Shown: piece by piece, positions 30,351-45,850 of the stretch
Layout of the letters: every line of letters starts with the position of its first letter
Numbering within the stretch: the stretch's first letter is position 1
NCBI RefSeq assembly: GCF_000725625.1
Contig: NZ_JOHS01000033.1
Location: 1 to 64,000, forward strand
From: Streptomyces sp. NRRL F-6676
Lineage (GTDB): Bacteria; Actinomycetota; Actinomycetes; Streptomycetales; Streptomycetaceae
Direction of reading: 5' to 3'
Length of the DNA: 64,000 bases
Made by a program: the position numbers and the translations under genes
Notes under the pieces: model-generated
Databases searched by the model: none
What the model saw: only the letters and a program-made list of their open reading frames with translations
Told to the model about the DNA's origin: nothing

Positions 30351-31226
30351 ATGTCTTGGTTTGAATCCCTCGTCCTCGGACTCGTCCAGGGGCTGACCGA
30401 ATTCCTCCCGGTGTCCTCCAGCGCCCACCTCCGGCTGACCGCCGCCTTCGCCGGCTGGAAGGACCCGGGCGCGGCCTTCACGGCCATCACCCAGATCGGC
30501 ACGGAGTCCGCGGTACTGATCTACTTCCGCAAGGACATCGCCAACATCCTCTCCGCATGGTCGCGTTCACTGGTGAACAAGGAGTGGCGGCACCACCCCG
30601 ACGCCCGCATGGGCTGGCTGGTGATCGTCGGCTCCATCCCGATCGGCGTGCTCGGCGTGACGCTCAAGGACCAGATCGAGGGCCCGTTCCGTGACCTGCG
30701 TGTCACCGCGACGATGCTCATCGCCATGGGCGTGGTCCTGGGCGTCGCCGACCGGCTCGCCGCTCGCGACGAGAAGGGCGGCCGCCACCGCGCGCCCAAG
30801 CAGCGCAAGACGCTGGAGAACCTGAACACCAAGGACGGCCTGATCTACGGCATCTGCCAGGCGATGGCCCTGATCCCGGGCGTCTCGCGCTCCGGGGCGA
30901 CGATCAGCGGCGGCCTGTTCCTCGGCTACAGGCGGGAGGCCGCGGCACGGTACTCCTTCCTGCTGGCGGTTCCGGCCGTCCTGGCGTCCGGGGTGTTCGA
31001 ACTGAAGGACGCGGCGGAGAGCGGGCACGTGTCCTGGGGGCCGACCCTCTTCGCGACGGTGATCGCGTTCGGGTCCGGATATGTGGTCATCTCGTGGTTC
31101 ATGAAATTCATCAGCTCGAAGTCGTTCATGCCGTTCGTCTGGTACCGGATCGCCCTCGGCCTCCTGCTGTTCGTGCTGGTCGGGGCCGGCGTGCTAAGCC
31201 CACACGCGGGCGAATCCGGCGGCTGA
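30351..31226 (+). CDS. uppP: Undecaprenyl-diphosphatase (BacA/UppP) with a replaced C-terminus
   Basis: A 291-aa integral membrane phosphatase that recycles undecaprenyl pyrophosphate for cell-wall synthesis. GLTEFLPVSSSAHL (N-terminal catalytic motif with the conserved Glu and Ser) and PGVSRSGATISGGLFLG (second motif with the active-site Arg) are intact, and eight or so helices are visible. The final 33 codons (31128-31226) are duplicated in divergent form at 45752-45850. The copy here uses CTA, CCA and GAA codons unlike the rest, so I infer that an inserted element supplied this 3' end. Confidence 0.93.
   Translation: MSWFESLVLGLVQGLTEFLPVSSSAHLRLTAAFAGWKDPGAAFTAITQIGTESAVLIYFRKDIANILSAWSRSLVNKEWRHHPDARMGWLVIVGSIPIGVLGVTLKDQIEGPFRDLRVTATMLIAMGVVLGVADRLAARDEKGGRHRAPKQRKTLENLNTKDGLIYGICQAMALIPGVSRSGATISGGLFLGYRREAAARYSFLLAVPAVLASGVFELKDAAESGHVSWGPTLFATVIAFGSGYVVISWFMKFISSKSFMPFVWYRIALGLLLFVLVGAGVLSPHAGESGG
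31128..31153 (+). repeat. Left direct repeat (attL candidate) inside uppP
   Basis: The core reads ATGCCGTTCGTCTGGTACCGGATCGC here in two pieces: ATGCCGTT then CGTCTGGTACCGGATCGC. It differs from the right copy at one base (T for C at position 8). The 18-bp stretch after the mismatch is identical. It encodes MPFVWYRIA within UppP. Confidence 0.7.
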
Positions 31227-31475
31227 ACGAGGGCCGCACGGATAGTGCTCTCTCGCGTTTCCCAGCGCCTGATCGCAGCACCGAACCACCCGGGGCACGG
31301 GCCACCGGCCTGTCCGACCGGGTACACCCGGCCCGCCACGACCTGGCCCAGCGTCCCGTCGACGGCCGCTGCGCCCTGGCCTTCGCCGGCCGACCGACGG
31401 CCTGATCCACCGTGGCGGCCCGGACCCCGATGTCACCATGGAACTCGGCGCCGAGGCATGTGCTGCGAGGCCGGC
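31227..31475. other. Gene-free stretch at the left end of the island
   Basis: There are 249 bp between the uppP stop and the LacI-family gene end (convergent). I see no recognisable protein fragment, no recombinase remnant and no strong hairpin. Confidence 0.5.
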
Positions 31476-32492
31476 TCACGTCGTCGAGGGCCGCCCTGTC
31501 GTACCGCGGACCACGAGTTCCGGAACCGGTGTGCGGAGCACCAGGTCAGTCAGGGGAGCTCCGTCGATGTGGTCGAGCAGCATGGACGTGGCGGCGGCTC
31601 CCGCTTCTTGCAGCGGCATGCGTACGACTGTCACTGGCGGGCAGTACACCTCGGCCATCCAGGTGTCTTGGACAGCCACCACCGAGAGCTCCTCCGGAAC
31701 GCGTATTCCGGCGCGGCTCGCGCAGGAAACAACGCCCAAAGCGGCGTTGACACTGGCCACCACCAGGCCGGTGGGAGATGGGGACGTACCCAGCAGTCGC
31801 TTCGCAGCAGTCATGCCCGCGTCGGCCTCCCATCCCGCGGCGACGACGGCGGACTTGGCGACGGAGCGCCCGGCAGCGCGCATGGCGGCCCAGAATCCCT
31901 TGAGCCTGCGCGCCGCGGCGTCATGCCGAACGGTTCCGCCGACGAATCCGAGGTGCTCGTGCCCGAGGTCGAGCAGATGCTGGGTGGCGATCCTCGCGGC
32001 TTCGACGTCGTCGAGAACCACCGAACCGGTGCGGCCCTTCAGCCGGGAGTTGAACAGTACGACGGGTACGTCGATGTCCAGGGTCGCCGCCAGCATGCGG
32101 TCGGTGAAGTCCTCCCGCCGCTGGAGGACCACCCCGTCGACCCGGCCCTTCCCTACGAGCGCATCCAACTCATGCTTTCCCGCCCGCGGGCCATTGAGCT
32201 GTCCCAGCAGCACGCTCACGGACCGCGATGTCGCGACCTCGTCCACGCCGGCCAGCATAGGCGCGAAGACGGCGTTGTTGACATCGGGAACGATCAACGC
32301 CAGGGCCCCGGCCCTGGACATGCGCAGGGCGCGGGCACGGTGACTCGGGACGTACCCGATCTCCGCCGCGACAGCCAGGACCCGCTGACGCGTGTCGGGA
32401 TGGATCCGGGCCTTGGCGTCCGCGGTCAGCACGCGGGAGGCCACCGATATGGATACGCCGGCGGCCGCCGCGACATCTTTCAGTCCTGCCAT
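31476..32492 (-). CDS. LacI-family repressor
   Basis: A 338-aa LacI/GalR protein. The HTH is at residues 3-25 (LKDVAAAAGVSISVASRVL), with the hinge helix at about 48-60, followed by a full periplasmic-binding-protein-like effector domain. It is the third gene of a minus-strand set with a CoA-transferase and an enoyl-CoA hydratase; the gap to the hydratase is 64 bp. Two palindromes with the central CG typical of LacI operators lie upstream of the CoA-transferase, so feedback control of the operon is inferred. Effector unknown. Confidence 0.9.
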   Translation of the reverse strand: MAGLKDVAAAAGVSISVASRVLTADAKARIHPDTRQRVLAVAAEIGYVPSHRARALRMSRAGALALIVPDVNNAVFAPMLAGVDEVATSRSVSVLLGQLNGPRAGKHELDALVGKGRVDGVVLQRREDFTDRMLAATLDIDVPVVLFNSRLKGRTGSVVLDDVEAARIATQHLLDLGHEHLGFVGGTVRHDAAARRLKGFWAAMRAAGRSVAKSAVVAAGWEADAGMTAAKRLLGTSPSPTGLVVASVNAALGVVSCASRAGIRVPEELSVVAVQDTWMAEVYCPPVTVVRMPLQEAGAAATSMLLDHIDGAPLTDLVLRTPVPELVVRGTTGRPSTT

Positions 32493-32556
32493 GGTCAGGG
32501 CATCCTACAAGGAGGCTGAACCCGAAACCGGTGGTCGAGACATGGCCGAGAAGACG

Positions 32557-33354
32557 TCAGCGTGCACCGAACTTCGCCGGACGCTTCTCGACGAAGGCCC
32601 GAATGCCCTCCCGCGCGTCGGCCGTGTTCAACAGGGCGTGCAGGTGCTGTTGTTCAATCGTGAACCCGGCGGTGGCGGTGTGCCCCACGGCGGCCTTGAT
32701 CGCCGTGATCGCGTGGACCGGTCCCCGCGCGAACTCGTCCGCGATGTGCTGCGCGCGCAGGAGAGCGGTGCCGTCATCGCTGACATGGGTGACAATGCCG
32801 AGTGCGTGGGCCCGTTCGCTGGAGATCCGCGCACCCGTCATGATCATTTCCTTGGCGCGGTTGATTCCCACGTGCCGGGTCAGCCGCTGGGTGCCTCCCC
32901 ATCCGGGCATCAGGCCCAGCGAGATCTCCGGCAGGCCGAACGAGGCTGTGCTGTCGGCCACCACCAGGTCGCAACTCAGTACGACCTCGAAGCCTCCTCC
33001 CAGAGCCAGGCCGTGAACGGCGGCGATGACGGGGAGCCGGAGACCGGCGATCGTGTCGCACATGGTATTGGCACGTGTGGTGAACGCCTGGAACTCCTCG
33101 CTGTCAGCCCTCGCATACTCGCCGATGTCGGCGCCGGCGGCGAAGGCGGGGCCGCTGCCGGTGATGATCACGGCGCGTATGGCCGGATTGGCGTCGGCGT
33201 CGAGCAGTGACGAGGTGACCAGCTGGATCATCTCGGAGTTGAACGCGTTGTACTTGTGGGGCCGGTTCAACCGGATGGCCAGCGTCTGGTCACGGATCTC
33301 GGTCAGGACGGGCAGCTCCTCGGCCCTGGGCCTGCTTGTCCGCTCAGTCGGCAC
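32557..33354 (-). CDS. Enoyl-CoA hydratase/isomerase (crotonase family)
   Basis: A 265-aa crotonase. GPAFAAGADIGEY and HGLALGGGFEVVLSCDLVV carry the oxyanion-hole residues, and PEISLGLMPGWGGTQRL carries a catalytic Glu. It hydrates or isomerises an enoyl-CoA. The GTG at 33354 is inside the end of the CoA-transferase gene (stop at 33344), an 11-nt overlap indicating translational coupling. With the CoA-transferase it resembles CaiB/CaiD-type pairs, but the substrate cannot be read from sequence. Confidence 0.88.
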   Translation of the reverse strand: MPTERTSRPRAEELPVLTEIRDQTLAIRLNRPHKYNAFNSEMIQLVTSSLLDADANPAIRAVIITGSGPAFAAGADIGEYARADSEEFQAFTTRANTMCDTIAGLRLPVIAAVHGLALGGGFEVVLSCDLVVADSTASFGLPEISLGLMPGWGGTQRLTRHVGINRAKEMIMTGARISSERAHALGIVTHVSDDGTALLRAQHIADEFARGPVHAITAIKAAVGHTATAGFTIEQQHLHALLNTADAREGIRAFVEKRPAKFGAR

Positions 33355-34534
33355 GGTGCAGCGCCCCCTTCCGCACGAGGACATCGACTTCCTGCGCGGT
33401 GTAGCCCAGCGACTCCAGGACCGTCGCGGTATCGGCTCCGAGCGCGGGCGGTACGGCATGGACACCAGGACGCTTTCCGTCATAGGTGACCGGGTGGCCC
33501 AGCACGCGGACCGTGCCCGCGTCAGGGTGTTCGAAGCTGACGATCGAACGGTTGTGGACCACCTGCGGATCCGTGACGACGTCGGCGTAGGTGTTGACCT
33601 GTGAGAACCAGATCTTGTGGGCGGTCAGCCGGGCGGTCCAGTCCGCGGTCGTCCGTCGACGCATGTGCTTGGCGACTCGCGCGTTGACCTGCTCCCGGCG
33701 GGCGTAGGAGTCGTCTTCTGCGATGTCGTCGAACCATGGATCGTCGAAGAGCGTGTGCAGGGCGGGGAGGCTGGTGAGGGAGAGGCAGAGGTGGCTGTCC
33801 GCCGTCGCGAAGACGCCGTAGGGAGCCTTGTAGTACATGGACGAGACGCCGGAGGCGCTGCGCTCTCCCTGGAAACCGTTCAGATGGTAGGCGAGCGGTT
33901 CGATCTGAAGGTCGAGTGCCGCGTTCAGCAGGTTGCTCTCGACCTTGCAGCCCTCGCCCGTACGTTCGCGCCCCTGCAAGGCGGCCAGGATGCCCATGGC
34001 TCCGAGGACGGCGCCGTGTTGATCGACGAGCGACGCACCCACCGGCGTGGGAGGCCCGTCGGCGGTTCCCGTGGCTGCGGCCAGCCCCGAGAGTGCCTGA
34101 ATGAGGACGTCCTGGCCGGGCCGGTCGCGGTAGGGCCCGTCGGGGCCATAGCCCGAGAGGGAGCAGTAGACCAGCCGCGGGTTCAGGGACTTCAGCCGCT
34201 CGTATCCGAACCCCAGACGGTCCATCGCGCCGGGCCGGAAGTTCTCGACCACCACGTCTGCGGTGGCCAGCAGTCTGTCGAGCGCCTCGCGCGACTCCGG
34301 CGCCTTGAGGTCGACCGCGATGCTCTTGGTGTTCCTGTTCCCGAGAAGGAAGAAGACGCTGGTGTCACCCAGGTATGCGTCGGGGCCCGACCAGGTCCGC
34401 TCGAAGGCACCGCTCGGTGGTTCGACCTTGATGACCTCGGCCCCGAGGTCGGCCAGTATCTGGCTCGTCGAGGGGCCCTGGAGGAAATGAGTGAAGCTCA
34501 CGACGCGGAGACCCGAAAGCATGTGTTGTCCCAT
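33344..34534 (-). CDS. CaiB/BaiF-type (class III) CoA-transferase
   Basis: A 396-aa family III CoA-transferase. LEADLGAEVIKVE-like N-terminal motif (LADLGAEVIKVEPPSG), FFLLGNRNTKSIAVDLK, VVVENFRPGAMDRLG and the catalytic aspartate region GASLVDQHG are all present. These enzymes move CoA between carboxylic acids without a hydrolytic step. It is the first gene of an operon with the hydratase and LacI genes. Here it could activate the acyl acid released by the island's deacylase; that link is inference. Confidence 0.9.
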   Translation of the reverse strand: MGQHMLSGLRVVSFTHFLQGPSTSQILADLGAEVIKVEPPSGAFERTWSGPDAYLGDTSVFFLLGNRNTKSIAVDLKAPESREALDRLLATADVVVENFRPGAMDRLGFGYERLKSLNPRLVYCSLSGYGPDGPYRDRPGQDVLIQALSGLAAATGTADGPPTPVGASLVDQHGAVLGAMGILAALQGRERTGEGCKVESNLLNAALDLQIEPLAYHLNGFQGERSASGVSSMYYKAPYGVFATADSHLCLSLTSLPALHTLFDDPWFDDIAEDDSYARREQVNARVAKHMRRRTTADWTARLTAHKIWFSQVNTYADVVTDPQVVHNRSIVSFEHPDAGTVRVLGHPVTYDGKRPGVHAVPPALGADTATVLESLGYTAQEVDVLVRKGALHRAD

Positions 34535-34711
34535 CTGAGGTGATGCAGCGTCCGACTCCGACCGGCGCGGGAATGCCGACCCGACGGCTCTTCGGGCGCG
34601 GGCATCCGGGAGTCCCGGGGTGCGGCCCCCAGGACTTGTCTTCCTGAAGCGCCCTGTCAGTCGACGCGGAATCAGGTCGAAGCCAAGGACGAGCCGTGGC
34701 GACTTCGTTTC

Positions 34712-34840
34712 ACACTAGACGGCACGCTTTGGCCTCCGCAAGAGTGTGCGCAATCGATTGTCCGCAGGCACTTTCGTCGTGTCGCGCCCTGGCCTCCACC
34801 TCTATGACCGACACGCCGCACCCACCTGCACAATCGATTG
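34712..34840 (-). promoter_or_regulatory. Promoter of the CoA-transferase operon with two CAATCGATTG operators
   Basis: On the minus strand a -35 TTGCGG (34741-34736) and a -10 TAGTGT (34717-34712) are 18 bp apart. Perfect palindromes CAATCGATTG lie at 34751-34760, immediately upstream of the -35, and at 34831-34840, exactly 80 bp further. The second extends to TGCACAATCGATTGTTCA. A central CG and symmetric arms fit a LacI-family site. The 34535-34958 gap holds no gene; the transcript would have a leader of about 170 nt. Confidence 0.6.
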
Positions 34841-34958: not shown

Positions 34959-36527
34959 TCAGTACGCGGCCCCCATGGCCCCGAGCTGGAGCCGGAGAGC
35001 CAGTCGTACGCGCGGCGAGGAAAGATCCACCGAAGCCACTTCCCCCAGGCGCCGCATGCGGTAACGCAACGTGTTGGGATGGATGCGCAGGGCGTGAGCG
35101 GCACTTCTGGGATCGCCGTGGAAGTCCAGCCACGCGGTGAGCGTCGCCAGGTGCGCGGTCCCGTGCTCCCTGTCATGGGCCGAGAGGGCTGCGAGCGGGC
35201 CGCCGAGCAGGCCCGCTTCGATTCGCGTCGCCGCCTGGGCCCGTTCCACCACGACGACGTCCCAGACGTCCTCCACCCGGATGAGTCCACCGGACGCGAC
35301 GGTCGGCAGTCGGCCCGCCGTGACCAACCGGCTGAGCTCGGCGGCCTCGCCACGCGAACGGGGAATCTCCTCGGGCGCGTGCGCCAGGCCGCCCATGACG
35401 GCGTACGCGCTTCGGTCGTGCGGGGAAAACTCGCCGAGGATGTTCCGCAGCCAGCGCACGGAACCCGGGCGAGGTGTCGTGGCAGGACCGTTGCCGCCGT
35501 CGCTCACCAGGCAGTACAGAAGGCCGTCGAACTCCACCGTGAGCGGCTGCTCCCAGCCGGCTCGACGGGCGACGGATTCCCAGACGAGGGCGTGCGCGCC
35601 CACGTCCCGCACCCCGTCCGGGGTGCCCAGAACGATGACGCGCCACGGGCCCGGCGGCAGCGCGAACGCCGCCTCCCGCTCCCCATGGCGCAGCACGGCG
35701 GAGAGGCGACCTTCCCGTATCCGGCGCCCCAAACCGGCGTCCGCGCGCAGGTGCAGCAGGTGCAGGGCAAGAGCGGACCCCACTCCTTCGAGTTCGCGAA
35801 TACGTTCCGGAGGCACCGGCTTCTCGGCCACGGCCCAGATCGAGCCGAGCCATTCGCCCGCGGCACGAACGGGAATGATCAGCCGTGGCAGCAGGCCGTC
35901 CGGCCCTGGAGGGGTCAGCACCGGCTCGCTGGAACTGGCGAGCCGGCGGTAGACGCCGCGGGCCCTGAAGTGCGCGGTCACCTCGGCAGGCACCCGTCGA
36001 CCCACGATCGTCGAGACCCGCACGGAGTCCGTGATCTCCTGGCGTGCGGAGTAGGCGAGGACGCGCGAGTGGGCGTCCTCCACGGTCACGGGGGCATCGA
36101 CGATGTCCGCTGCCGCATCCGCGAGGGCGAAGAGGGTGCCGCGCACACCCGCGGCATCCGTGTCCGTTCCCGCCCCGCGGTCGATGACACTGCGCAGCAG
36201 CCAGACAGCGCCCGTCCATGACACGTGCGGTTGCAGCTCCACGAGGGCCAGGCCGAGACGCTCGGCGATGTCGCCGATCCCCGAAGTCCTGATCACGGCG
36301 GCCTTCAGCACGAGTCCTTCCGCTCCAGCCGCGGCAGCTCGTTCCGCGAGCTCCGCAGCCGCATGCGGGTGTGTGACGCCCACGCCCAGGACGAGATCGC
36401 CCGGCTGTCCCGCGCCCTCACCGGGCTCCGCCAGCACGACATCGCGGATCTCGGCACCCGGCCCCGCGACGACCATGCGCAACAGTCCGGCACCGAGCGA
36501 GGTGACGAGATCGGTGAGAGTGATCAC
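34959..36527 (-). CDS. PucR-family transcriptional regulator
   Basis: A 522-aa regulator. The N-terminal PucR/purine-catabolism-like sensor domain spans about 1-120, the middle is GGDEF-like/CdaR-type (about 280-400), and the C-terminal HTH is HALRIHPNTLRYRMRRLGEV near residue 480. Members activate purine, allantoin or amino acid catabolism in response to metabolites. It is divergent from the DadA-type oxidase with a 175-bp gap holding a 17-bp inverted repeat. GTG at 36527 begins the conserved MITLTDLV. Confidence 0.88.
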   Translation of the reverse strand: MITLTDLVTSLGAGLLRMVVAGPGAEIRDVVLAEPGEGAGQPGDLVLGVGVTHPHAAAELAERAAAAGAEGLVLKAAVIRTSGIGDIAERLGLALVELQPHVSWTGAVWLLRSVIDRGAGTDTDAAGVRGTLFALADAAADIVDAPVTVEDAHSRVLAYSARQEITDSVRVSTIVGRRVPAEVTAHFRARGVYRRLASSSEPVLTPPGPDGLLPRLIIPVRAAGEWLGSIWAVAEKPVPPERIRELEGVGSALALHLLHLRADAGLGRRIREGRLSAVLRHGEREAAFALPPGPWRVIVLGTPDGVRDVGAHALVWESVARRAGWEQPLTVEFDGLLYCLVSDGGNGPATTPRPGSVRWLRNILGEFSPHDRSAYAVMGGLAHAPEEIPRSRGEAAELSRLVTAGRLPTVASGGLIRVEDVWDVVVVERAQAATRIEAGLLGGPLAALSAHDREHGTAHLATLTAWLDFHGDPRSAAHALRIHPNTLRYRMRRLGEVASVDLSSPRVRLALRLQLGAMGAAY

Positions 36528-36591
36528 GGCCGGACCCTGGTCCGGAGGACGACGGCTTCACTACGCATGCTGCGCATTCTGCATCACCCCT

Positions 36592-36608
36592 TTGTGCCCG
36601 TGGCACAA
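36592..36608. promoter_or_regulatory. Inverted repeat between pucR-like and dadA-like genes
   Basis: TTGTGCC-CGT-GGCACAA is a perfect 7-3-7 inverted repeat in the divergent intergenic region, 65 bp from the pucR start and 95 bp from the dadA start. It is a plausible site for the PucR regulator. Binding is inferred. Confidence 0.5.
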
Positions 36609-36702
36609 GCACCACGGCGGCCATGAGCGGATCACGACGAAGACAGCGGCGGCCCGCCCACCCAGGATCGACACCGTTGCCGTCGAAACGGAAGGAAGCG
36701 CA

Positions 36703-37962
36703 ATGCGGTCCTCCTCCCCCGGTCCTGACCGAGTCGCCGTCGTCGGCGCAGGCATGGTCGGCCTCTCCACTGCCTGGTTCCTCCAGGAACTCGGCGCCAC
36801 CGTCACCGTGCTCGAACGCGCTGACGTGGCCGCCGGATCCTCATGGGGCAACGCAGGATGGATCACCCCCGGACTCGCCACGCCCCTGCCCGAACCCGCC
36901 GTTCTGCGCTATGGCCTGCGGGCCGTACTGAGCCCTTCCTCGCCCGTCTATGTCCCCTTGAGCAGCGATTTCCGGCTGCTGCGGTTCCTGGCGGGTTTCG
37001 CACGCCACAGCACCACCGCCAGGTGGAAACGTGCGATGTGGTCGCTGGTGCCGATCAACCGGCTGGCGCTGTCGAGCTTTGACGCCCTGTCGGAGGGCGG
37101 CGTCGCTGCCGAAACCGTCCCCGCGGGCTCGTTCCTCGCCGCGTACGGCAGCGCACAGGAGCGCGAGGTGTTGCTGGACGAACTGGAGCACATACGGTCC
37201 TCGGGACAGAGCATCGAGTTCGATGTGCTCAGTGGTGACGAGGCTCGGGAGGTCGAACCGGCGCTGTCCGGGAAGGTCGGCGCGGCGCTGCGGCTGCACG
37301 GGCAGCGCTATGTCGACCCGGGGGCCTATGTGCGCGCCCTCGCCGCCGCGGTCCGTGCCCGTGGCGGCGAGGTCCGGATCGGTGCGGAGGTCACCGACGT
37401 GTCGGACGACGGCCGAGGAGTTCGAGTCCGCACGACGGACGGCAGAGTGGATCACGTCGACTCCGTCGTCCTCGCCAACGGTGTCTGGTTGCGTCGCCTC
37501 GGCCATCGGTTCGGCGTGCGCTCCCTCATCCAGGCCGGGCGGGGTTACAGCTTCAGCGTCCCCATGGAACGGGTGCCCTCGGCACCGGTGTACTTCCCCG
37601 CTCAGCGTGTGGCCTGCACGCCGCTGGAAGGTCAGCGCCTGCGGGTGGCGGGCATGATGGAGTTCCGGTCTCCTGAGGCGCCTTTGGACGCCCGCCGGAT
37701 CAACGCCCTCGTGGAAGCCGCCCGGCCGCTGCTGGACGGAGCGGACCTCGAGATGCGCAAGGACGAATGGGTGGGTTCGCGGCCCTGTACCCCCGACGGC
37801 CTGCCGCTCATCGGCGCCACTCGCTCGCCACGTGTGTTCGCCGCCGGCGGGCACGGCATGTGGGGCATGACTCTCGGACCGGCGACCGGTCGCCTGCTCG
37901 CGGAGCAGGTGGTCACCGGCCGTCGGCCGGCGGAACTGGGCCCCTTCGATCCGTTGCGCTGA
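36703..37962 (+). CDS. DadA-type FAD-dependent D-amino acid dehydrogenase/oxidase
   Basis: A 419-aa FAD protein. VAVVGAGMVGLSTAWFLQELGATVTVLER is the dinucleotide fold at residues 11-39 (quoted in two parts elsewhere in the family as GxGxxG). GSSWGNAGWITPG and SRPCTPDGLPLIGATR with GHGMWGMTLGPATGRL at the C-terminus are DadA hallmarks. It would oxidise a D-amino acid to an imino acid, then a 2-oxo acid. The ATG at 36703 follows GGAAGGAA. Placement next to an N-acyl-D-amino acid deacylase supports a D-amino acid as substrate; a glycine- or D-hydroxyproline-type oxidase is the alternative. Confidence 0.87.
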   Translation: MRSSSPGPDRVAVVGAGMVGLSTAWFLQELGATVTVLERADVAAGSSWGNAGWITPGLATPLPEPAVLRYGLRAVLSPSSPVYVPLSSDFRLLRFLAGFARHSTTARWKRAMWSLVPINRLALSSFDALSEGGVAAETVPAGSFLAAYGSAQEREVLLDELEHIRSSGQSIEFDVLSGDEAREVEPALSGKVGAALRLHGQRYVDPGAYVRALAAAVRARGGEVRIGAEVTDVSDDGRGVRVRTTDGRVDHVDSVVLANGVWLRRLGHRFGVRSLIQAGRGYSFSVPMERVPSAPVYFPAQRVACTPLEGQRLRVAGMMEFRSPEAPLDARRINALVEAARPLLDGADLEMRKDEWVGSRPCTPDGLPLIGATRSPRVFAAGGHGMWGMTLGPATGRLLAEQVVTGRRPAELGPFDPLR

Positions 37963-38005
37963 CGCGGGACGGCGGCCCGTAGCCGGTGCGCAGGCCCGTC
38001 GCCAC

Positions 38006-39043
38006 TCAGGCCGCGCCGGGCAGCATGCCCCACGGGTCCACCGGGATCACCTCGGTGGACCTGCCGTGCTCGTCCACCAGGCGTCCGTGCACCTTCACCT
38101 GACGGAGCACCAGACGACGTTCGGCGATGGTGACCTGCGGATGTTCCGCGGCCAGTCTGAGCACGATCTCGTCCAGGTGCTCCACCGAACGCAGGCTGAC
38201 GATCAGACACAGATTGGTGCGACTGACCACGGGCGCGCAGAAGCGCGTCTCCCGCCACTCCCCGATCGCCCGTCCGATGCCGCCGACTTCGGCGTCGGGT
38301 GCCGTCAGCCACAGCATCGCCATGGCGTGCCATCCGGCCAGGGGCCGCGCCACATCGCAGCGGAAGGCGATTTCGCCCCGTCGCTGCAACCGGTCGAGGC
38401 GGCGCTTGACCACCTGCGGCGAAGTCCCCAGGTCTTGTGCGACCTCGGTGTAACTGCGGCGCCCGTCCCTTCCCAGGGCGAGGTACAGCGCTCTGTCGTC
38501 GGCGCTGAGGGGACGCAGTTCCTTGGGAGGCGGCCCCAGGTCGCTACGGACCTGCTCGCGTTGCGCGCGATTGAGCACTCCGTGCCTCCAACGCCCCCCG
38601 CCCAGCATGCCCGTGTAGACATGGCTGCTCACCCGGGTGACGTCGGGGGTGATCGGCAGCCCGTCCAGCAGCACCGCGGAGATGGCATCGACCGTTGGGG
38701 CGACCACCAGGGCGAACAGGTCGTACTCGCCGACCGTGATGCCCACGGTGGCGATGTGCGGCAGCGGGGTGAAGGCGGCGGCCACGTCCACGGCCGTGCC
38801 GGGTTTGCAGGCCACCTCGACGATCGCTCCCCGGAAAGTGGGGCCTTCCAGGGTGATGCACGTCCATGCGGTGCGTGCCCGGACGAGCGCCTGCCATCTG
38901 CGGGCCAGGGTGACCGGGGACAGGTCGAGCACCTCGGACAGGGTGGTCCAGCTCACGCGTGGGTTCAGTTGCAGCGCATCGGTGAGGGCGAGGTCGGTCT
39001 CGTCCAGGATCGGGACTCCGCCCCGGCCGACAGAACTCGTCAT
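38006..39043 (-). CDS. Double-HTH Lrp/AsnC-family regulator
   Basis: A 345-aa protein that is two Lrp/AsnC units in tandem. The first HTH (about 8-55, LQLNPRVSWTTLSEVLDLSPVTL) and first RAM-like domain are followed by a second HTH near 180-225 (LGRDGRRSYTEVAQDLGTSPQVVKRRLDRL) and a second RAM domain. Ordinary Lrp proteins have one unit of about 150 aa. It is convergent with dadA and divergent from the transporter/deacylase pair, so it probably senses an amino acid product. ATG 39043 is preferred; GTG 39055 is in frame. Confidence 0.88.
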   Translation of the reverse strand: MTSSVGRGGVPILDETDLALTDALQLNPRVSWTTLSEVLDLSPVTLARRWQALVRARTAWTCITLEGPTFRGAIVEVACKPGTAVDVAAAFTPLPHIATVGITVGEYDLFALVVAPTVDAISAVLLDGLPITPDVTRVSSHVYTGMLGGGRWRHGVLNRAQREQVRSDLGPPPKELRPLSADDRALYLALGRDGRRSYTEVAQDLGTSPQVVKRRLDRLQRRGEIAFRCDVARPLAGWHAMAMLWLTAPDAEVGGIGRAIGEWRETRFCAPVVSRTNLCLIVSLRSVEHLDEIVLRLAAEHPQVTIAERRLVLRQVKVHGRLVDEHGRSTEVIPVDPWGMLPGAA

Positions 39044-39201
39044 AATCCGTCCCACCCGCGTGCTCGACGCAATTTTCCTTCATCTTGGCGGGCCGAACGT
39101 GATGCGGGAGCACCCTGAACGGCATCGCCGTCCACGCCGCCGTCATCTTTAACGCGGTGTTCATGCCCGCGCAAGTTCACTCACACATCCCGGAGGCTTC
39201 C

Positions 39202-40536
39202 ATGAGAGCCCTGTCCCCGCTCGCGGTGGAGCACGACGCCCGGCGCGATGCTCTGTACGCGAAAGCGGCACGGCGGATCATTCCGCTGCTGGTCGTGTGC
39301 TACACCTTCGCCTATCTGGACCGGGTCAACATCGGCTTCGCCAAGCTCCAGATGCAGCAGGACATCGGCATCAGCGAGCATGTGTACGGAGTGGCAGCCG
39401 GCATCTTCTTCCTCGGATACGTCATCTTCGAGGTGCCGAGCAATCTGTGGCTGGCCAGGGTGGGGACGCGCAAGACGGTCGTGCGCATCATGATCCTTTG
39501 GGGGATCACCTCGGCGGCCATGGTGTTCGTCCATGACGCCACCAGCTTCTACGCCATCCGCTTCCTGCTCGGTGTCTTCGAGGCCGGTTTCGCACCGGGG
39601 ATCATCTACTACCTCACCCTGTGGTTCCCGCCGGCCCGGATGGCGGCGGTCATGTCGTACGTCATGCTTCCCGGGCCCATCGGATCGATGGTCGGTGGCC
39701 CGCTGTCCACTTGGATCATGTCGACCCTCGACGGCGCCGCCGAACTTGCCGGATGGCAGTGGGTGTTCATCATCGAGGGCCTGCCCTGTGTCCTGCTCGG
39801 AGTCGTGGTCTGGAAGACGCTCGTAGACCGTCCGTCCGACGCCGGGTGGCTCACGGCCGAGGAGAAGGACATCATCACGGTCGACATCGGCAAGCGCCAG
39901 CAGGGCGGCAAGCACCGGCTCGGCGCGGCACTCACGGCTCCGCGGACCTACAGCCTGGCCCTCAGCTACTTCTGCCTCATCAGCGGCATCTATGCCGTGA
40001 GCTTCTGGCTTCCGACCATCCTCACGGAGAACGGTGTCCACGGCCTTTCCCGTGTCGGTGCCCTCTCCGCGGTCCCGTACCTGTTCGCCATCGTGTTCAT
40101 GCTGATCGTCGGCCGCCGTTCCGACCGCACCGGCGAGCGCCGGCTGCACAGCGCGATCCCGGCCGGGATCGCCGTCTTCGCACTGGCATGTGCCGCTGTG
40201 ACCGCGAGCCACTTCGTGGTGTCCTTCCTGTCGATCAGCGTGGCAATCGTCTGCCTCTGGGTGGCGTACACCGTCTTCTGGTCGATCCCGCCCTCGTTCC
40301 TCAAGGGGACGGCCGCAGCCGGAGGTATCGCGTTCATCAACTCGATCGGGCTCCTCGGCGGCTTCTTCAGCCCCATGATCATGGGATTCGTGAAAGAACG
40401 CACCGGGAGTACCGAGTGGGGGCTGCTGACGATGAGCGCGCTTGTCGCCGCTGGCACAGCGCTGCTGCTCGCGACCAAACCGACCCCCGCGCGCGTGGAG
40501 ACGGACATCGAACGCGAGGTGCCTGCCGGCACGTGA
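39202..40536 (+). CDS. MFS transporter, anion:cation symporter (ACS) family
   Basis: A 444-aa permease with 12 predicted helices. FAYLDRVNIGFAKLQM, GYVIFEVPSNLWLARVGTRK and the second-half GRRSDRTGERR are typical of the ACS family, which imports organic anions such as tartrate, allantoate, hydroxyphenylacetate and N-acyl compounds. The ATG at 39202 has GGAGG 6 bp upstream. The deacylase begins 41 bp after its stop, so they form an operon: import, then cleavage. The specific substrate is inferred from the neighbour. Confidence 0.9.
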   Translation: MRALSPLAVEHDARRDALYAKAARRIIPLLVVCYTFAYLDRVNIGFAKLQMQQDIGISEHVYGVAAGIFFLGYVIFEVPSNLWLARVGTRKTVVRIMILWGITSAAMVFVHDATSFYAIRFLLGVFEAGFAPGIIYYLTLWFPPARMAAVMSYVMLPGPIGSMVGGPLSTWIMSTLDGAAELAGWQWVFIIEGLPCVLLGVVVWKTLVDRPSDAGWLTAEEKDIITVDIGKRQQGGKHRLGAALTAPRTYSLALSYFCLISGIYAVSFWLPTILTENGVHGLSRVGALSAVPYLFAIVFMLIVGRRSDRTGERRLHSAIPAGIAVFALACAAVTASHFVVSFLSISVAIVCLWVAYTVFWSIPPSFLKGTAAAGGIAFINSIGLLGGFFSPMIMGFVKERTGSTEWGLLTMSALVAAGTALLLATKPTPARVETDIEREVPAGT

Positions 40537-40577
40537 TCGCGTCCTCCTTCCCCACCAGCCGTATCGGAGTGATTCCC

Positions 40578-42164
40578 ATGCCTGCTTCCACGCTCTTCCG
40601 CAAGGCCACCGTCGTCGACGGTTCCGGTGCCCCGGCCTACACCGCCGACGTCCATGTCGCCGACTCCCGGATCACCCGCGTGAGCGATCCACGTCCCGGG
40701 GCGGGGACGGCGGACCGTGTCATCGACGCCGAGGGACTCGTCCTGAGCCCGGGGTTCATCGACGTCCACTCACACGCCGACAACGCCCCGTTCCTGCATA
40801 CTGCCGATGTGTCCAAGGTGACCCAGGGGGTCACCACAGAGGTCGTCGGCAACTGCGGATTCAGCCTGGCTCCGGTGCACGATGCCCATCGGGACGCCTT
40901 TCGCTCCTTCACCCGCCGCATCTTCCCCCCACTGCCGTTCGACTGGTCGTCCATCGAGGAGTTCTTCTCCCGGGCTGACGAGGCCGGCCACGTCGTCAAT
41001 GTCGCCCATCTCATCGGCCACAACGCCCTGCGCATCGCTGCCATGGGACTGGAGGCCCGCGCACCCCGCCCCCAGGAGCTGGAGGCGATGCGGTCGCAGC
41101 TGCGCCGGGCCCTGGAGGCCGGAGTGTTCGGGCTCTCCACGGGACTCATCTACCCGCCCGGAGTGTTCTCCGAGGTCGAGGAACTCGTCGCACTCGCCGA
41201 GGTGCTGCCGCCCGGCCGTGTCTACGCCACTCACATGCGGGGCGAGGGACCGCAGTTGTTGCGGAGTGTCGCCGAGGCGGTGCACATCGCCGAACGCGCC
41301 GGGTGCCGCCTACAGGTCTCCCATCTCAAGGCGACGGGAAAGCAGGCCTGGGGAACCGTGAGCGACGCGCTCAAGGCTCTCGACGCGGCCCGGGCACGCG
41401 GCCTCGTCGCGCATCAGGACGTGTATCCCTACGAAGCCGCCGGCACGATGCTCACCGCCTGCCTCCCCCCGTGGTTCCAGGACGGCGGCAACCAGGCCTT
41501 CCTCGCCCGGCTCCGTTCCGAGGACGCTCTGACTCGCGCCAGGGCCGAGCTGGAGCGGCATGACGGCAGTTGGGAGAACTGGGTGGCCGCGGCGGGGTGG
41601 GACCGCATCGTCGTGGCCTCCTCCGCAACCCATCAGTACGACGGCATGACCCTCGCGCACATCGCCGCGCAGAAGGGAATCGCCTCGTTCGACGCCCTGG
41701 TCGGCGTGCTGCTGCAAGAGGAGCTCCAGGTCTCCATGACGGTGTTCGCCATGGACGAGAAGGACATCGCCGCGGCGATCGCCCATCCCAGCTCGATGAT
41801 CGGGTCCGACGGCATGCCACCGGGAAACGGTGGCAAGCCCCACCCCCGGATGTTCGGCACGTTCCCGAAGATCCTGGCCACATACGTCCGTGACACCGGT
41901 CTGCTGTCGCTGCCCGAAGCGATCCGGAAGATGACGTACTTGCCCGCCACCGCCTTCGGCATCCCCGACCGAGGACGCATCGCGGAGGGCTGTGCGGCCG
42001 ATCTCGTCCTCTTCGACGCCGGGACGGTCAAGGACCACGCGACCTATGAAGCACCGGATCGGCGGGCGGGGGGCATACGCACCGTCATGGTCAACGGGCG
42101 GATCGTGGTGGAGGACGGCGAATTCAGCGGGGAGCGAGCGGGAAGGCGTCTCACCCCGGCATGA
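40578..42164 (+). CDS. N-acyl-D-amino acid deacylase (amidohydrolase family)
   Basis: A 528-aa zinc amidohydrolase of the D-aminoacylase family. SPGFIDVHSHADN (metal histidines), VVGNCGFSLAP (the conserved metal-binding cysteine of D-aminoacylases), THMRGEG, VSHLKATG and the late Asp in GSDGMPPGN are all in place. It removes the acyl group from N-acyl-D-amino acids or related N-carbamoyl/peptidic amides. It follows the transporter gene. Together with the DadA oxidase this is the main evidence for the island's theme. Confidence 0.92.
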   Translation: MPASTLFRKATVVDGSGAPAYTADVHVADSRITRVSDPRPGAGTADRVIDAEGLVLSPGFIDVHSHADNAPFLHTADVSKVTQGVTTEVVGNCGFSLAPVHDAHRDAFRSFTRRIFPPLPFDWSSIEEFFSRADEAGHVVNVAHLIGHNALRIAAMGLEARAPRPQELEAMRSQLRRALEAGVFGLSTGLIYPPGVFSEVEELVALAEVLPPGRVYATHMRGEGPQLLRSVAEAVHIAERAGCRLQVSHLKATGKQAWGTVSDALKALDAARARGLVAHQDVYPYEAAGTMLTACLPPWFQDGGNQAFLARLRSEDALTRARAELERHDGSWENWVAAAGWDRIVVASSATHQYDGMTLAHIAAQKGIASFDALVGVLLQEELQVSMTVFAMDEKDIAAAIAHPSSMIGSDGMPPGNGGKPHPRMFGTFPKILATYVRDTGLLSLPEAIRKMTYLPATAFGIPDRGRIAEGCAADLVLFDAGTVKDHATYEAPDRRAGGIRTVMVNGRIVVEDGEFSGERAGRRLTPA

Positions 42165-42189
42165 GCCACCGGACCGCCCTGGCCGGTCC

Positions 42190-42490
42190 GCGCATGAGAC
42201 CTCTGGGAGCTGTGGGGACCGGCCATACCTCCCGTCGGAGGAGCTGCTGCCCTACGTGCGGTGGCCTGCGGCAGCTGCTGGTCGAGCAGCCGGTTCGCCG
42301 CCTCGTCGCCAGTGGGCCGACTTCGAGGCGCTCGTATCCCTTGTCGAACCCGGGCAGCGCGGCCGCGGTGCGGACTCCCACCAACGGGGTGACGGGTTCG
42401 CTGTCCATGCGTCGCGCCACGAAGGAGAGAATCTCCAGTGTTCCGCGATCGATCCACTGTGCGTCGTCGACAAGGTGCGTCTCGGACTCG
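42190..42490 (-). pseudogene. Remnant of a LuxR/LAL-family ATPase regulator
   Basis: On the minus strand, 42483-42313 encodes HLVDDAQWIDRGTLEILSF, a Walker-B segment typical of LAL regulators, followed by ARRMDSEPVTPLVGVR and PGFDKGYERLEVGPL. Similarity then continues in another frame (GDEAANRLLDQQLPQA), showing a frameshift. The P-loop, the rest of the protein and the LuxR HTH are missing. This is a decayed fragment inside the island. The rest of the 42165-42979 gap has no other recognisable gene. Confidence 0.75.
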
Positions 42491-42794
42491 CTCCAGAATT
42501 CTGCGGCGAGCGGTCCCCGCGAGCCCTTCCCGCATTTTCCAGGGAATCGAGAATTCCCAGACAATAGCGCGCCCGACCGTGACAGTGCCCGCAGGTCCGG
42601 CGTCACCGGGCTTGGGTCGTGTTGAGCCGGCGACGACACACGCATCGCCCGACATATTCCGCCCGTCGCCCGCCGGTTCGCCACAGTACCGCGCCCTGCC
42701 CATGCCCTACGGGCTCCCGGCCGGGCGTCGAGGTCGCCGCGGGGCAGAACCGGCAGGCGCACGCGCTCTCCGCCTGTGGGCGAACGGCACCGAT

Positions 42795-42843
42795 GCAGTC
42801 ATGTGACTGATACGGGTGTTTCCCATCTCAGTCACGTGACTGA
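42795..42843 (+). promoter_or_regulatory. Two palindromic operators upstream of the metallohydrolase
   Basis: TCAGTCACGTGACTGA at 42828-42843 is a perfect 16-bp palindrome. GCAGTCATGTGACTGA at 42795-42810 differs at two positions. Both are followed by TAC, and the centres are 33 bp apart, close to three helical turns. A third copy is at 44533. The cognate regulator is unknown. Confidence 0.7.
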
Positions 42844-42979
42844 TACCCGTTGACTGCTCCTTGAAGCACCATGGTCAAACCGGCCGTGATGACGTGAATG
42901 CGGCCTTGTCACAGTCCTGGCCGCCTCCAATGGCCGGCGCGCCAGGACATCTTGTGTGTACTTCATCGGAGTGCGAAAA

Positions 42980-44020
42980 ATGGACAGCGAAAATCGTTCA
43001 CGTTCCCTGAGCCGGCGCGGCTTCGTCGGAATGACCGCGGGCATCGGCGCGGCCGTCGGTGCCGGCAGCCTGTTCGGCAGCCGGCTCCCCGCGTCAGCCG
43101 CCGAACGCCGGACGCGGGTCCAGACGATCGAACTGGGCAGGGTCACCATCACCCGTGTCGTCGAGTTCAGCGGTCCGGTGGGCCTGACGTCGCGCCAGTT
43201 CTTCCCGGACAGCGCGCCGGAGCTGTGGCAGGAGAACGAGAACTGGCTGAGCCCGGACTTCTGGAACCCCAGCACCGACATGGTCGGCTCCGCCCTGCAA
43301 ACATGGGTCTTGCGTAGTGAGGGCAAGACGATCCTGATCGACACGGGCGCCGGAAACGACAAATTCCGCCCCTACGCCAAGCAGTGGCAGTACATGGACA
43401 CCGACTTCCTGCGCCGCCTCGCCCGCGCCGGGGTGCGCCCCGAGGACGTCGACGTCGTCGTGAACACTCACCTCCACAACGACCACGTCGGCTGGAACAC
43501 CCGGCGCGAGGACCGCGACTGGGTGCCGACCTTCCCCAACGCCACGTACGTGATCCCCAAGGTCGACTTCGACTTCTGGAACCCCCAGAGCCCGGTGCGG
43601 CCGAAGTACTGGCAGGGCAATCAGAACGTCTGGGAGGACAGCGTACTTCCGGTCCACAACGCCGGCCTGGTGAAGCTGTGGGAGGACTCGCACACCCTGG
43701 ACGGCAGCTTGAAGCTGCACCTCGCCCCCGGGCACACTCCCGGCTCCTCCGTCCTCCGGCTGGAATCGGGTAAGGAAAAGGCGCTGTTCACCGGCGACCT
43801 GCTGCACACCCCGCTCCAGCTCGAACACCCCGAATTCAACAGCTGCTTCGAGGAGGACGAGAAGAAGGCGCTCGCCACCCGGCGCCGCGAACTGGAGTGG
43901 GCCGCCGACAACAAGGCCCTCGTCCTGCCCGCCCACCTTCCCGGCCACGGCGCCGCCGAGGTGGAGCGCAACGGCAGCTACTTCAAGATCAAGGAGTGGG
44001 CGGGCTTCAGCCGCAGCTGA
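42980..44020 (+). CDS. Tat-exported metallo-beta-lactamase-fold hydrolase
   Basis: A 346-aa enzyme. Residues 10-45 are a Tat signal (LSRRGFVGMTAGIGAAVG, cleavage near PASAAE). The metallo-beta-lactamase motif THLHNDHVGWN (HxHxDH) follows at about 167, then APGHTPGSS and FTGDLLH, and PAHLPGHG near the end. The subfamily includes methyl parathion hydrolase and quorum-quenching lactonases, so an exported esterase, lactonase or amidase is plausible. ATG 42980 has GGAG 8 bp upstream. Two novel operators precede it. Confidence 0.88.
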   Translation: MDSENRSRSLSRRGFVGMTAGIGAAVGAGSLFGSRLPASAAERRTRVQTIELGRVTITRVVEFSGPVGLTSRQFFPDSAPELWQENENWLSPDFWNPSTDMVGSALQTWVLRSEGKTILIDTGAGNDKFRPYAKQWQYMDTDFLRRLARAGVRPEDVDVVVNTHLHNDHVGWNTRREDRDWVPTFPNATYVIPKVDFDFWNPQSPVRPKYWQGNQNVWEDSVLPVHNAGLVKLWEDSHTLDGSLKLHLAPGHTPGSSVLRLESGKEKALFTGDLLHTPLQLEHPEFNSCFEEDEKKALATRRRELEWAADNKALVLPAHLPGHGAAEVERNGSYFKIKEWAGFSRS

Positions 44021-44530
44021 ACCGGCCGGAAGGACCGTCCGGCATCGCGAGCCCGGCGCACCCTCCGTGTCGCGCCGCGGAACCAGGCCGTCACCTGCGA
44101 AGTCTCCCGGGATACGCGCCGTCAACCGCGGGCACGACCGTCCACAGGCGGAAGGATGACGGAGAGCTGTGCGTCGCCCGGAGCAGCGTCTGCTGCTGCA
44201 CATCGATCACCTCGACGCGACCTCGACCGTACTCGCACGAGCCTTGGACCCGCTCGCCCGGGAACCCGGCCACGCCCCGGGCCGTCGTCCGCACAGCACC
44301 GGGCCACGACCGGCCACACCACTTCACGGGACGTCCGCGGCTGCGGCCGTCCCCTGTGCCCACCGCGCGCAGACGGCGACCGACCGTGTTGCCCGCCGGA
44401 TCGAGCGGCCCCGAAGCCTTGTCGGCCGCCACTTCTCTCCCGGACGGCACGGGCCGGGGCATGGGCCGGTGGGCACGGGTCATCGATGAGGTGCGACTCC
44501 GTCCAGCGGCCGACGGTCCGTCGTGGCCAG
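44021..44530. other. Gene-free, probably degenerate stretch in the island
   Basis: Five hundred bases after the metallohydrolase contain only unsupported open frames on both strands. None shows a family motif I recognise. Decayed coding sequence is likely but cannot be identified by eye. Confidence 0.5.
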
Positions 44531-44532
44531 GT

Positions 44533-44548
44533 GCAGTCACGTGACGTA
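44533..44548 (+). promoter_or_regulatory. Third copy of the TCAGTCACGTGACTGA operator
   Basis: GCAGTCACGTGACGTA matches the palindrome at 13 of 16 positions, with the central AGTCACGTGAC intact. It lies about 85 bp before the RidA remnant, suggesting that the lost ridA gene belonged to the same regulon as the metallohydrolase. Confidence 0.6.
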
Positions 44549-44630
44549 TACCGCGGCCCGTGCCCGGTACCGCAGCATCGTGGTGGGGGGTCGCTCACGG
44601 AGCGGTCGTACTCGCCGGGAGGCGGCCGAG

Positions 44631-44750
44631 ATGAACCAGGCATACGCCGAGGCGGTGAGCGAGCCGTTCCCGGCCCGTACCACCGTCTACATGGCGCTTC
44701 CGCCCGGCATGCTGGTGGAGATCGACGCTCTGGCCGCCATCGATGGCTGA
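44631..44750 (+). pseudogene. C-terminal remnant of a RidA (YjgF) imine deaminase
   Basis: ATG 44631 behind GGGAGG opens a 39-codon frame, MNQAYAEAVSEPFPARTTVY then MALPPGMLVEIDALAAIDG. This is the conserved RidA C-terminus (MNEVYAEFF...PFPARTTV...LP.G..VEI.AIA). The first two-thirds, with the substrate arginine region and most of the barrel, are missing. RidA hydrolyses reactive enamines and imines such as those released by DadA-type oxidases, so it fits the island theme. Whether the short frame is still translated is unknown. Confidence 0.72.
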
Positions 44751-44897
44751 CCAGGGCCCGTCGCAGCGCGGCCGATCGGCTGCGACAGCCCGTCCCGGGT
44801 TGCCGCAGCCGATCGGCCGCGTCATGACATACGCCGCCCGCGAGCGCCGTCGCTGACCCGGTGGCACTCGACGGACGTCTTCGGAGAACGGAAAGGC

Positions 44898-45749
44898 ATG
44901 ACTGATCGGTTGCCGCAGGCGTGCCGCGCGCTCCGTGTCACCGGGGCCGACCTCGTGGACGCGGTGTGCGAGCTCTCGGGCCGGCCGGCGCCTCCCCGGG
45001 GAGCGCACCCTGTACGGGCTCTCTACCTGCGAGTCCTCGAAGTGGTCGCCACGACAGCGCCGGGGGCACTGCAACCGGGCGACATCAGCGCTGCCGCCAA
45101 CGTGCGCTCCGGCGTCCTCGACGTCGAAGTGCCGGGCCCGTCAGAGGTCGCGGCACAGTACATGGAGCAACTGGTGGACGACCTCGGCATCGGTGATCTC
45201 GCCCAGCTCGCCCAGCTCGCCGCGCTCACCTGGGAGGAGGCAGCCAAGGGCGCCGCCACTGTGCTCGGCTTCACTGGTCCGGACCTCGAGGAAACGCTGT
45301 GCGAACTCGGCGCCCAGTCCCTCGTCGACGACATCGCCGAACGCCCCCCACAGCACTGGGGCCGCCTCCACACGCAGGCGGTCCGCGCTGCCCTGTACCT
45401 CTGCCTGGCGGACCTGGCCGACGCCCTGATCGACGCCTCCGAGTCCACACCCACCCCGCTGCGGTGGAGGAGCGGCGCAGAACAGGGGCGGGAATCGGCA
45501 GAGGTTTGCGTCGGCGGAGTGGAGCGCCACCTCCTGGTCGACCGGGCGGAGGCTCTGCCGCCCCGGGAGATGCCGATCTGGAGCCATCCCGACGTCGCCC
45601 CCGTTCAGTTCACCTGGAGGTGGCAGCTGCGGCCGGGGACGTCCGAGCGCGTCACACACGGCTGCGGGACCTTTCCCACCCCGTTCGCGGCTCGCCACGC
45701 GGCCGAGTGTGCGATCACCGCCATGGCAGCCGGCCGTTGCGACCTGTGA
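44898..45749 (+). CDS. Unknown 283-aa protein abutting the right island repeat
   Basis: A soluble protein with no signal or membrane helix. The N-terminal 170 residues look all-helical and rich in Leu and Ala (LGIGDLAQLAQLAALTWEE, TLCELGAQSLVDDIAE). The C-terminal 100 residues contain Trp, His and Arg (FTWRWQLRPGTSERVTHGCG). I do not recognise the family; no recombinase, nuclease or excisionase motif is seen. ATG 44898 follows GGAAAGG. Its stop is 2 nt from the duplicated uppP core, the place where integrase or excisionase genes usually lie in integrative elements. Confidence 0.75.
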   Translation: MTDRLPQACRALRVTGADLVDAVCELSGRPAPPRGAHPVRALYLRVLEVVATTAPGALQPGDISAAANVRSGVLDVEVPGPSEVAAQYMEQLVDDLGIGDLAQLAQLAALTWEEAAKGAATVLGFTGPDLEETLCELGAQSLVDDIAERPPQHWGRLHTQAVRAALYLCLADLADALIDASESTPTPLRWRSGAEQGRESAEVCVGGVERHLLVDRAEALPPREMPIWSHPDVAPVQFTWRWQLRPGTSERVTHGCGTFPTPFAARHAAECAITAMAAGRCDL

Positions 45750-45751
45750 GC

Positions 45752-45777
45752 ATGCCGTCCGTCTGGTACCGGATCGC
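45752..45777 (+). repeat. Right direct repeat (attR candidate)
   Basis: ATGCCGTC followed by CGTCTGGTACCGGATCGC, identical to 31128-31153 except one base. It continues into the second copy of the uppP 3' end. Confidence 0.7.
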
Positions 45778-45850
45778 GTGGGGTGCGGCGAGCATCGGGC
45801 TGGTGGCGACGGGGGTGCTGAGTCCGCACGCGGCGGGGTCGGCGGGCTGA
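45752..45850 (+). pseudogene. Displaced 3' end of uppP
   Basis: Thirty-two codons plus stop encode MPSVWYRIAWGAASIG then LVATGVLSPHAAGSAG. This matches the C-terminus of the UppP at 30351-31226 at 20 of 32 positions and has exactly the same length. It has no ribosome site or N-terminal part, so it cannot be a gene by itself. All codons end in G, C or T in the local style, and the following sequence is core-like, so I infer this is the original uppP tail. Confidence 0.75.

Follow-up and report, generated by a model that had tools for sequence, protein, structure and literature searches.

A segment of about 14.5 kb that separates uppP from its usual downstream neighbour in Streptomyces sp. NRRL F-6676 is very probably (a probability of roughly 0.9) a sedentary, eroded island, derived from an IntSt-type element that integrated into the 3' end of this gene, at the palindrome TTCATGAA. 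The segment occupies positions 31227-45751 of the window, which is the whole stretch of DNA analysed (64,000 nucleotides, positions 1 to 64,000 of contig NZ_JOHS01000033.1). The gene uppP is bacA, and both names are used below. The original prediction placed an island in the 3' end of uppP, with the native gene tail pushed to the far end and an incoming tail completing the gene. This is upheld by empty sites in relatives, by comparison of the tails, by a left-end motif, by the fuller right end that this island has in S. griseoaurantiacus, and by the low divergence of the island genes.

The duplication on which this prediction was built is present as described. The 3' end of uppP at 31128-31226 (copy A) is found again at 45752-45850 (copy B), both copies being 99 bp long and in the same frame and orientation. 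Aligned ungapped, they are identical at 68 of 99 positions, including 25 of the first 26 (the 26-bp core, 31128-31153). The second-best ungapped match of copy A on the plus strand of the whole window is 49 of 99, and thus the duplication is not a chance resemblance. Copy B at 45752 is decayed (MPSVWYRIAWGAASIGLVATGVLSPHAAGSAG). The GC (guanine plus cytosine) content between the copies is 0.688, compared to 0.742 and 0.741 in the flanks.

The arrangement of this locus was compared in 109 uppP loci (29 from genomes of the genus and 80 named loci; 104 distinct after five duplicate pairs are collapsed), which are the best matches to the window uppP and therefore a non-random sample. A short open reading frame (ORF), referred to here as the neighbour ORF, lies 61-444 bp after the uppP stop codon in 76 of the 109 loci (72 of 104 without duplicates), which are considered empty sites. 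It lies 0.9-9.6 kb away in 13 loci (also 13 without duplicates) and outside the compared DNA in 20 (19 without duplicates). In the window, the neighbour ORF is 14.7 kb from uppP and 105 bp past copy B. Since it directly follows uppP in most loci and is far off here, the stretch 31227-45751 was inserted between the gene and this native neighbour. The inserts of 0.9-1.5 kb in L034, L013, L103, L105, L106, and L042 have no displaced tail; they are kept among the 33 non-empty loci and are not counted as attachment-site (att)-type insertions.

The left end of the insertion corresponds to a documented integration site. TTCATGAA occurs once in the window (0.03 occurrences expected in shuffled sequence), inside uppP and 30 bp to the left of the 26-bp core, and it is found at the equivalent place in 107 of the 109 loci. 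According to Huguet-Tapia et al. (2014; PMC4057263), the element PAISt of S. turgidiscabies integrates at TTCATGAA in the 3' end of bacA via the tyrosine recombinase IntSt, and its far end falls within a copy of the bacA end that measures 141 bp (138-141 bp among the published copies). The same source describes the islands of S. scabies and S. acidiscabies as having been fixed through erosion of intSt and of the palindrome, and PMC8369830 restates the palindrome data. The target is the bacA site already published in PMC4057263. Additionally, a left-end motif begins 31 bp past the stop codon of the window uppP. At a threshold of at least 15 of 20 bases, 28-31 bp after the stop, this motif is present in 13 of the 33 non-empty loci and in none of the 76 empty sites; when duplicates are removed, it is present in 12 of 32 non-empty loci and again in none of 72 empty sites. 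The distance from the bacA primer site to the end of the motif is 446 bp in the window, and the product for the left attachment site (attL) in PMC4057263 is 445 bp; these two primers of that paper presumably form its attL pair.

The direction of the tail exchange was judged on the displaced uppP tail of S. griseoaurantiacus, which is better preserved than that of the window. Seventy of the 76 empty-site tails are closer to this displaced tail than to copy A, five are closer to copy A, and one is tied. Relative to the window's own decayed copy B, 37 of 76 empty-site tails are nearer copy A, copy B being too decayed to decide the matter alone. The tail type found on the window uppP, HAGESG, is carried by 12 of the 33 non-empty loci and by one of the 76 empty loci (Fisher p 1e-6, kinship ignored). 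Similarly, S. canus (L045) has a tail 89% identical to that of the window and a gene body 82% identical, which agrees with the attached tail being element-borne. The gene-body identity of L097 was set aside, as it is probably an artefact of insertions or deletions. Together, the empty-site comparison and the distribution of HAGESG show that the displaced tail is of the native kind and that the attached tail arrived with the element. The proposed direction of exchange, with the displaced tail native and the attached tail incoming, is thus the one with which 66 of the 72 distinct empty-site tails agree. The reverse outcome, empty-site tails matching 31128-31226, did not occur (5 of the 72 are nearer copy A than the S. 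griseoaurantiacus displaced tail, and one is tied).

The island of S. griseoaurantiacus JCM 4763 has the same genes in the same order, in a gap between uppP and the neighbour ORF of 32.2 kb, more than twice the length of the window island. Positions 31470-42274 of the window align to it as one block with 94.9% identity, and seven more plus-strand blocks, extending up to 45751, follow in the same order. The divergence between the two genomes at fourfold-degenerate sites is 0.061-0.110 in eight island genes, compared to medians of 0.212 in 13 upstream genes (including uppP, 0.276) and 0.200 in 15 downstream genes. Only one of the 28 flanking genes falls inside the island range (Mann-Whitney p 7e-8), and the island genes are approximately 2.4-fold less diverged than their flanks. 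These values concern ORFs picked by third-position GC, two of which were without a match, and the oxidoreductase and amidohydrolase of the island are not included. The lower divergence of the island shows that the host lineages separated before the island copies did and that the island moved horizontally; the last transfer may have been mediated either by an integrase or by homologous recombination. In a search of 295 genomes with a 4.2-kb block from the middle of the island, the full length was found, beyond the window genome, only in G242 (96%), taken from its coordinates to be S. griseoaurantiacus, and parts were found at 67-73% in three other genomes. The original prediction had also named relatives with the interior genes and no uppP duplication as a finding that would count against it. 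Of the carriers, the one placed relative to uppP is the full-length one (as S. griseoaurantiacus), in which the block lies at uppP together with a displaced tail. A plasmid origin of the cargo was rejected, as a plasmid search with it gave four records with partial matches, none covering at least 80%.

The low divergence of the island relative to its flanks would also fit chromosomal exchange, and no integrase was found in the window island by the IntSt search. It is conceivable on these grounds that homologous recombination of flanking DNA, or illegitimate insertion, brought in the segment and that no site-specific recombinase ever acted at the site in this lineage. However, plain exchange would account neither for the far-end copy of the uppP tail, which is of another type, nor for a left-end motif common to IntSt-type elements, and this explanation is therefore considered very unlikely. 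Plain exchange may nevertheless have been the last move of an already integrated island between the two lineages.

Each of the two genomes keeps one end of the island better, the window the left end and S. griseoaurantiacus the right. In the latter, the displaced tail starts at TTCATGAG, and the approximately 20 bp before TTCATGAG resemble the end of an IntSt-type gene. Window position 45751 aligns to both 34704 and 35047 of the S. griseoaurantiacus sequence, and 342 bp of that right end are missing from the window. Because the missing 342 bp include uppP-like sequence, the difference is a loss in the window and not a gain in S. griseoaurantiacus. This deletion accounts for the window duplication beginning at ATGCCG and for the absence of its right-hand palindrome. 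The original duplication extended further left, since the displaced copy in S. griseoaurantiacus is 30 bp longer in that direction, up to TTCATGAG. Therefore, 31128 and 45752 do not mark the recombination point, and the crossover is placed at TTCATGAA (31098-31105). The 26-bp core had been taken for the crossover site, but it is the leftover of the 342-bp deletion, and the published site lies 30 bp to its left.

Displaced uppP tails precede the neighbour ORF in 20 genomes, of which 19 are additional to that of the window. The right-hand palindrome is exact in 12 of the 20, degenerate in five (S. griseoaurantiacus, G091, S. scabiei, S. stelliscabiei, and G097/G137), and absent in three (the window, L037, and G107). 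As a positive control, the right ends of S. scabiei and S. stelliscabiei read TGTATGAA, the value published for S. scabies 87-22 in PMC4057263. The displaced tail of S. hyderabadensis (L037, at L037:9942) starts at most 1 nt from the place where that of the window starts, and it is likewise without a palindrome. These ends bear on the possibility that another recombinase integrated the element, using the 26-bp sequence 31128-31153 as its core. The start of the window duplication at ATGCCG and the nearly coincident start in L037 speak for such an event. Nevertheless, the S. griseoaurantiacus copy continues for 30 bp to the left in a region where the window lacks 342 bp, and 17 of the 20 displaced ends have TTCATGAA, exact or degenerate, at the same place. 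Accordingly, the 26-bp core was rejected as the crossover, and the use of another recombinase is highly improbable.

The prediction had noted no recognised integrase in the element, and indeed the IntSt search of the window was empty at E up to 1e-3. Sixteen of 21 right-end regions contain an IntSt-type gene or a C-terminal piece of one; the other five, those of the window, S. griseoaurantiacus, L037, L118, and L120, gave no match at E up to 1e-3. The 21 right ends are those of the 20 displaced-tail genomes plus L047, which has a 13-residue tail remnant and is outside the 20; L136, the genome's own uppP, is uncounted, and L134 and L135 belong to one genome and are counted once. The full IntSt-type gene of Streptomyces sp. 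NRRL WC-3626 (L130) has the published catalytic residues at 209, 375, and 407, and its product matches, at 100% identity, a cluster of 466 residues that bears the name 'integrase [Streptomyces turgidiscabies]'. This gene (L130:560-2251) sits at the right end of a gap of approximately 345 kb (L067). No Pfam match was obtained for any of three IntSt-type proteins (L115:586-2049, L130:560-2251, and L133:610-2148) and no NCBIfam match for the one tested. There are 484 homologues at E up to 1e-10, and among the 120 matches listed none has a precomputed Pfam domain. Routine annotation by these libraries can therefore miss the IntSt integrase family.

Other recombinases and targets were also considered. 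The window's own genome gave only two weak partial matches to an IntSt-type protein (30% and 24% identity), and phage relatives of IntSt are limited to partial matches of 25-27% in four Gordonia phage records. Tyrosine recombinases of family PF00589 are present, at one place or another, in all 28 genomes searched, among the matches listed. Resolvase matches in S. scabiei and S. stelliscabiei lie downstream of uppP, at a distance of approximately 70 kb. A serine recombinase of the window's own genome (G000) was rejected, as no resolvase-family match was found there, and a tRNA target was rejected because ARAGORN found no tRNA in the window.

Several observations weigh against the segment being a remnant of an IntSt-type element. 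The window has a single TTCATGAA, in uppP, and no right-hand palindrome, and its island has no IntSt remnant at E up to 1e-3; both features are thus read from relatives. The left-end motif is absent from the S. griseoaurantiacus island. HAGESG is absent from 21 of the 33 non-empty loci, and HAGES also occurs on the tails displaced in S. scabiei and S. stelliscabiei, so that the tail classes are no clean label. Ten of the 13 loci with a gap of 0.9-9.6 kb have tails nearer the native type. Between the window and S. griseoaurantiacus, the copy A tail is 0.917 identical and the gene body 0.913; since the tail is no closer than the body, movement of the tail together with the island is unsupported between these two hosts. 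Finally, L037 is not a close relative of the window island and yet shares its displaced-tail start within 1 nt, a coincidence that may be due to chance or to a preferred point of deletion. A tandem duplication of the uppP end in this genome, later split by ordinary gene gain, would also give two tail copies in the same frame and orientation, but its probability is practically negligible: the two copies agree at only 68 of 99 positions and have their nearest matches in different relatives, a comparison that largely refutes it, and the motif at +31 and the low island divergence would be unexplained.

If the segment is a remnant of an IntSt-type element, as preferred here, the integrative element would have recombined site-specifically into the 3' end of uppP, at TTCATGAA. 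Integration would have joined the element's own tail to uppP (31106-31226); the native tail, displaced to the opposite end (45752-45850), would then have decayed. The integrase gene and the right-hand palindrome would have been lost later, and the 342-bp deletion (relative to S. griseoaurantiacus) would have erased the last visible trace of the right end, leaving the 99-bp remainder. This very element presumably once carried an IntSt-type integrase, and the island is presumably no longer able to move by itself. The assertion that uppP is essential is unsupported, as a bacA deletion strain of S. coelicolor is listed in PMC4057263 and the window's own genome has a second uppP homologue that is 46% identical (G000:C7:164901-165710; L002).

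In comparison to known systems, the window has the features of sedentary bacA/uppP islands, namely an insertion between uppP and its neighbour, TTCATGAA at the left end, and a partial uppP 3' copy at the far end. An intSt remnant beside the right end, which is seen in published islands and is not definitional, was not found in the window at E up to 1e-3. From the features of a mobile IntSt element of the PAISt type, the left-end sequence is present (18/20 at +31), and the right-hand palindrome and an IntSt-type gene next to the right end are absent from the window. Because these two defining features are lacking, the segment is not classed as a mobile IntSt element; it is a new, strongly eroded bacA-site island. 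The mechanism, the site, and the erosion are already published for scab pathogens. In a search of the open-access literature, with few subscription journals covered, none of the papers listed presents itself, in its title or the opening of its abstract, as a survey of this site in other Streptomyces.

The closest published counterparts, as described in PMC4057263, are PAISs1 and PAISa1 (the colonization region of S. scabies and S. acidiscabies), which are also fixed in the 3' end of bacA, with a partial copy of the bacA end at the boundary and an eroded palindrome. However, they are approximately 105 kb long, carry virulence genes, and keep 21-65 amino acids (aa) of intSt, whereas the window island is 14.5 kb long and has catabolic cargo, no trace of intSt, and no right palindrome. 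PAISt of S. turgidiscabies shares with the window the target gene, the palindrome, the displaced bacA end, and the matched left-end primer site; unlike the window island, it is 674 kb long, has an active integrase, and excises and transfers (PMC4057263). The bacA islands and txt-null integrative and conjugative elements in PMC10711302 resemble the window, by description, in that the elements at the bacA site have no known virulence genes and some of them carry genes for sugar catabolism, although they come from scab-associated strains. The S. griseoaurantiacus island, as noted, is longer and lacks the left-end motif, and it has a fuller right end.

The coordinates of the island and its borders are given in Table 1. 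No transfer gene was found among the ten island ORFs by Pfam scan, and the protein families encoded suggest a catabolic role for the cargo. The protein at the right end of the island has 61 homologues at E up to 0.001, and the named ones are hypothetical. In addition, on visual inspection the minus-strand frames at 42151-42762 resemble fragments of a large ATPase-type regulator, although a Pfam scan of one of them gave no match.

Table 1. Features of the island and its borders, with positions in the window
Feature	Position	Strand	Basis
uppP (bacA), 291 aa; native body, element-borne tail from the palindrome on	30351..31226	+	Pfam BacA PF02673, E 3.2e-86
TTCATGAA, attL palindrome, putative crossover site	31098..31105		Sole window copy; published site in PMC4057263
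Incoming, element-borne uppP tail, contains copy A (31128-31226)	31106..31226	+	HAGESG class in 12/33 non-empty and 1/76 empty loci
Element left-end motif	31258..31277	+	18/20 bases shared with a PMC4057263 primer, reverse-complemented
LacI-family regulator	31476..32492	-	Pfam
Enoyl-coenzyme A (CoA) hydratase/isomerase; start codon uncertain, ORF overlaps the next	32557..33483	-	Pfam
CoA-transferase family III	33344..34534	-	Pfam
PucR-type regulator, C-terminal HTH_30 domain	34959..36527	-	Pfam
Flavin adenine dinucleotide (FAD)-dependent oxidoreductase from about residue 208, nearest D-amino acid dehydrogenase; true start further in	36103..37962	+	Pfam; NCBIfam below cut-off
Lrp/AsnC-type regulator, two helix-turn-helix domains	38006..39055	-	Pfam
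Major facilitator superfamily (MFS) transporter	39157..40536	+	Pfam
Amidohydrolase from about residue 320; true start further in	39621..42164	+	Pfam and NCBIfam
Metallo-beta-lactamase (MBL)-fold hydrolase, lactonase-like	42956..44020	+	Pfam; NCBIfam below cut-off
283-aa protein of unknown function, island right end	44898..45749	+	No Pfam match
Deletion scar; lacks 342 bp that are present at the right end in S. griseoaurantiacus	45751..45752		Alignment
Displaced native uppP tail (copy B), decayed, left part and palindrome gone	45752..45850	+	Sequence and tail comparisons
59-aa ORF, native downstream neighbour of uppP	45956..46135	+	Position in 76/109 loci

The gaps between uppP and the neighbour ORF that contain a displaced tail range from 1.5 kb (G107, with a 15-residue remnant) and 4.0 kb (L037) to 88 kb (G118), 104 kb (S. 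scabiei and S. stelliscabiei), 276 kb (S. tuirus, L090), and approximately 345 kb (NRRL WC-3626, L067). These sizes are arithmetic from coordinates, and none is available for four of the 20 displaced-tail genomes (G123, G129, G130, and G097/G137), in which the neighbour is on another contig. The neighbour ORF was searched for in 80 genomes, many of them chosen for looking occupied, and no occupancy rate for the genus follows. In G095, the neighbour ORF occurs twice on the contig that holds uppP, once at 3.4 kb (C3:118151-118327) and once at 77 kb (C3:44334-44510), and a displaced uppP tail precedes the far copy only. At L109:19000-20150, two small adjacent ORFs near the right end resemble by eye a toxin-antitoxin pair, in a segment that is 94-96% identical among L016, L076, and L109.

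Overall, the comparison adds displaced uppP tails at the landing site of the scab islands in 19 further genomes, with gaps of up to approximately 345 kb, and it places a puzzling island in a documented system, of which the remnant can be just a left-end motif and a decayed gene tail. Even after loss of the integrase, such islands can thus be recognised by a displaced second gene tail. A more far-reaching proposal is that, across many Streptomyces that for the most part are not known as scab pathogens, IntSt-type elements repeatedly put their own allele in place of the C-terminus of UppP, and that the swapped tail matters to the host, the swap being selected and not a mere by-product of a safe site. 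This is very unlikely. If true, however, the exchanged UppP tail might matter, for instance, for bacitracin tolerance or lipid-carrier recycling, and the scab islands would be one branch of a genus-wide family of tail-swapping elements.

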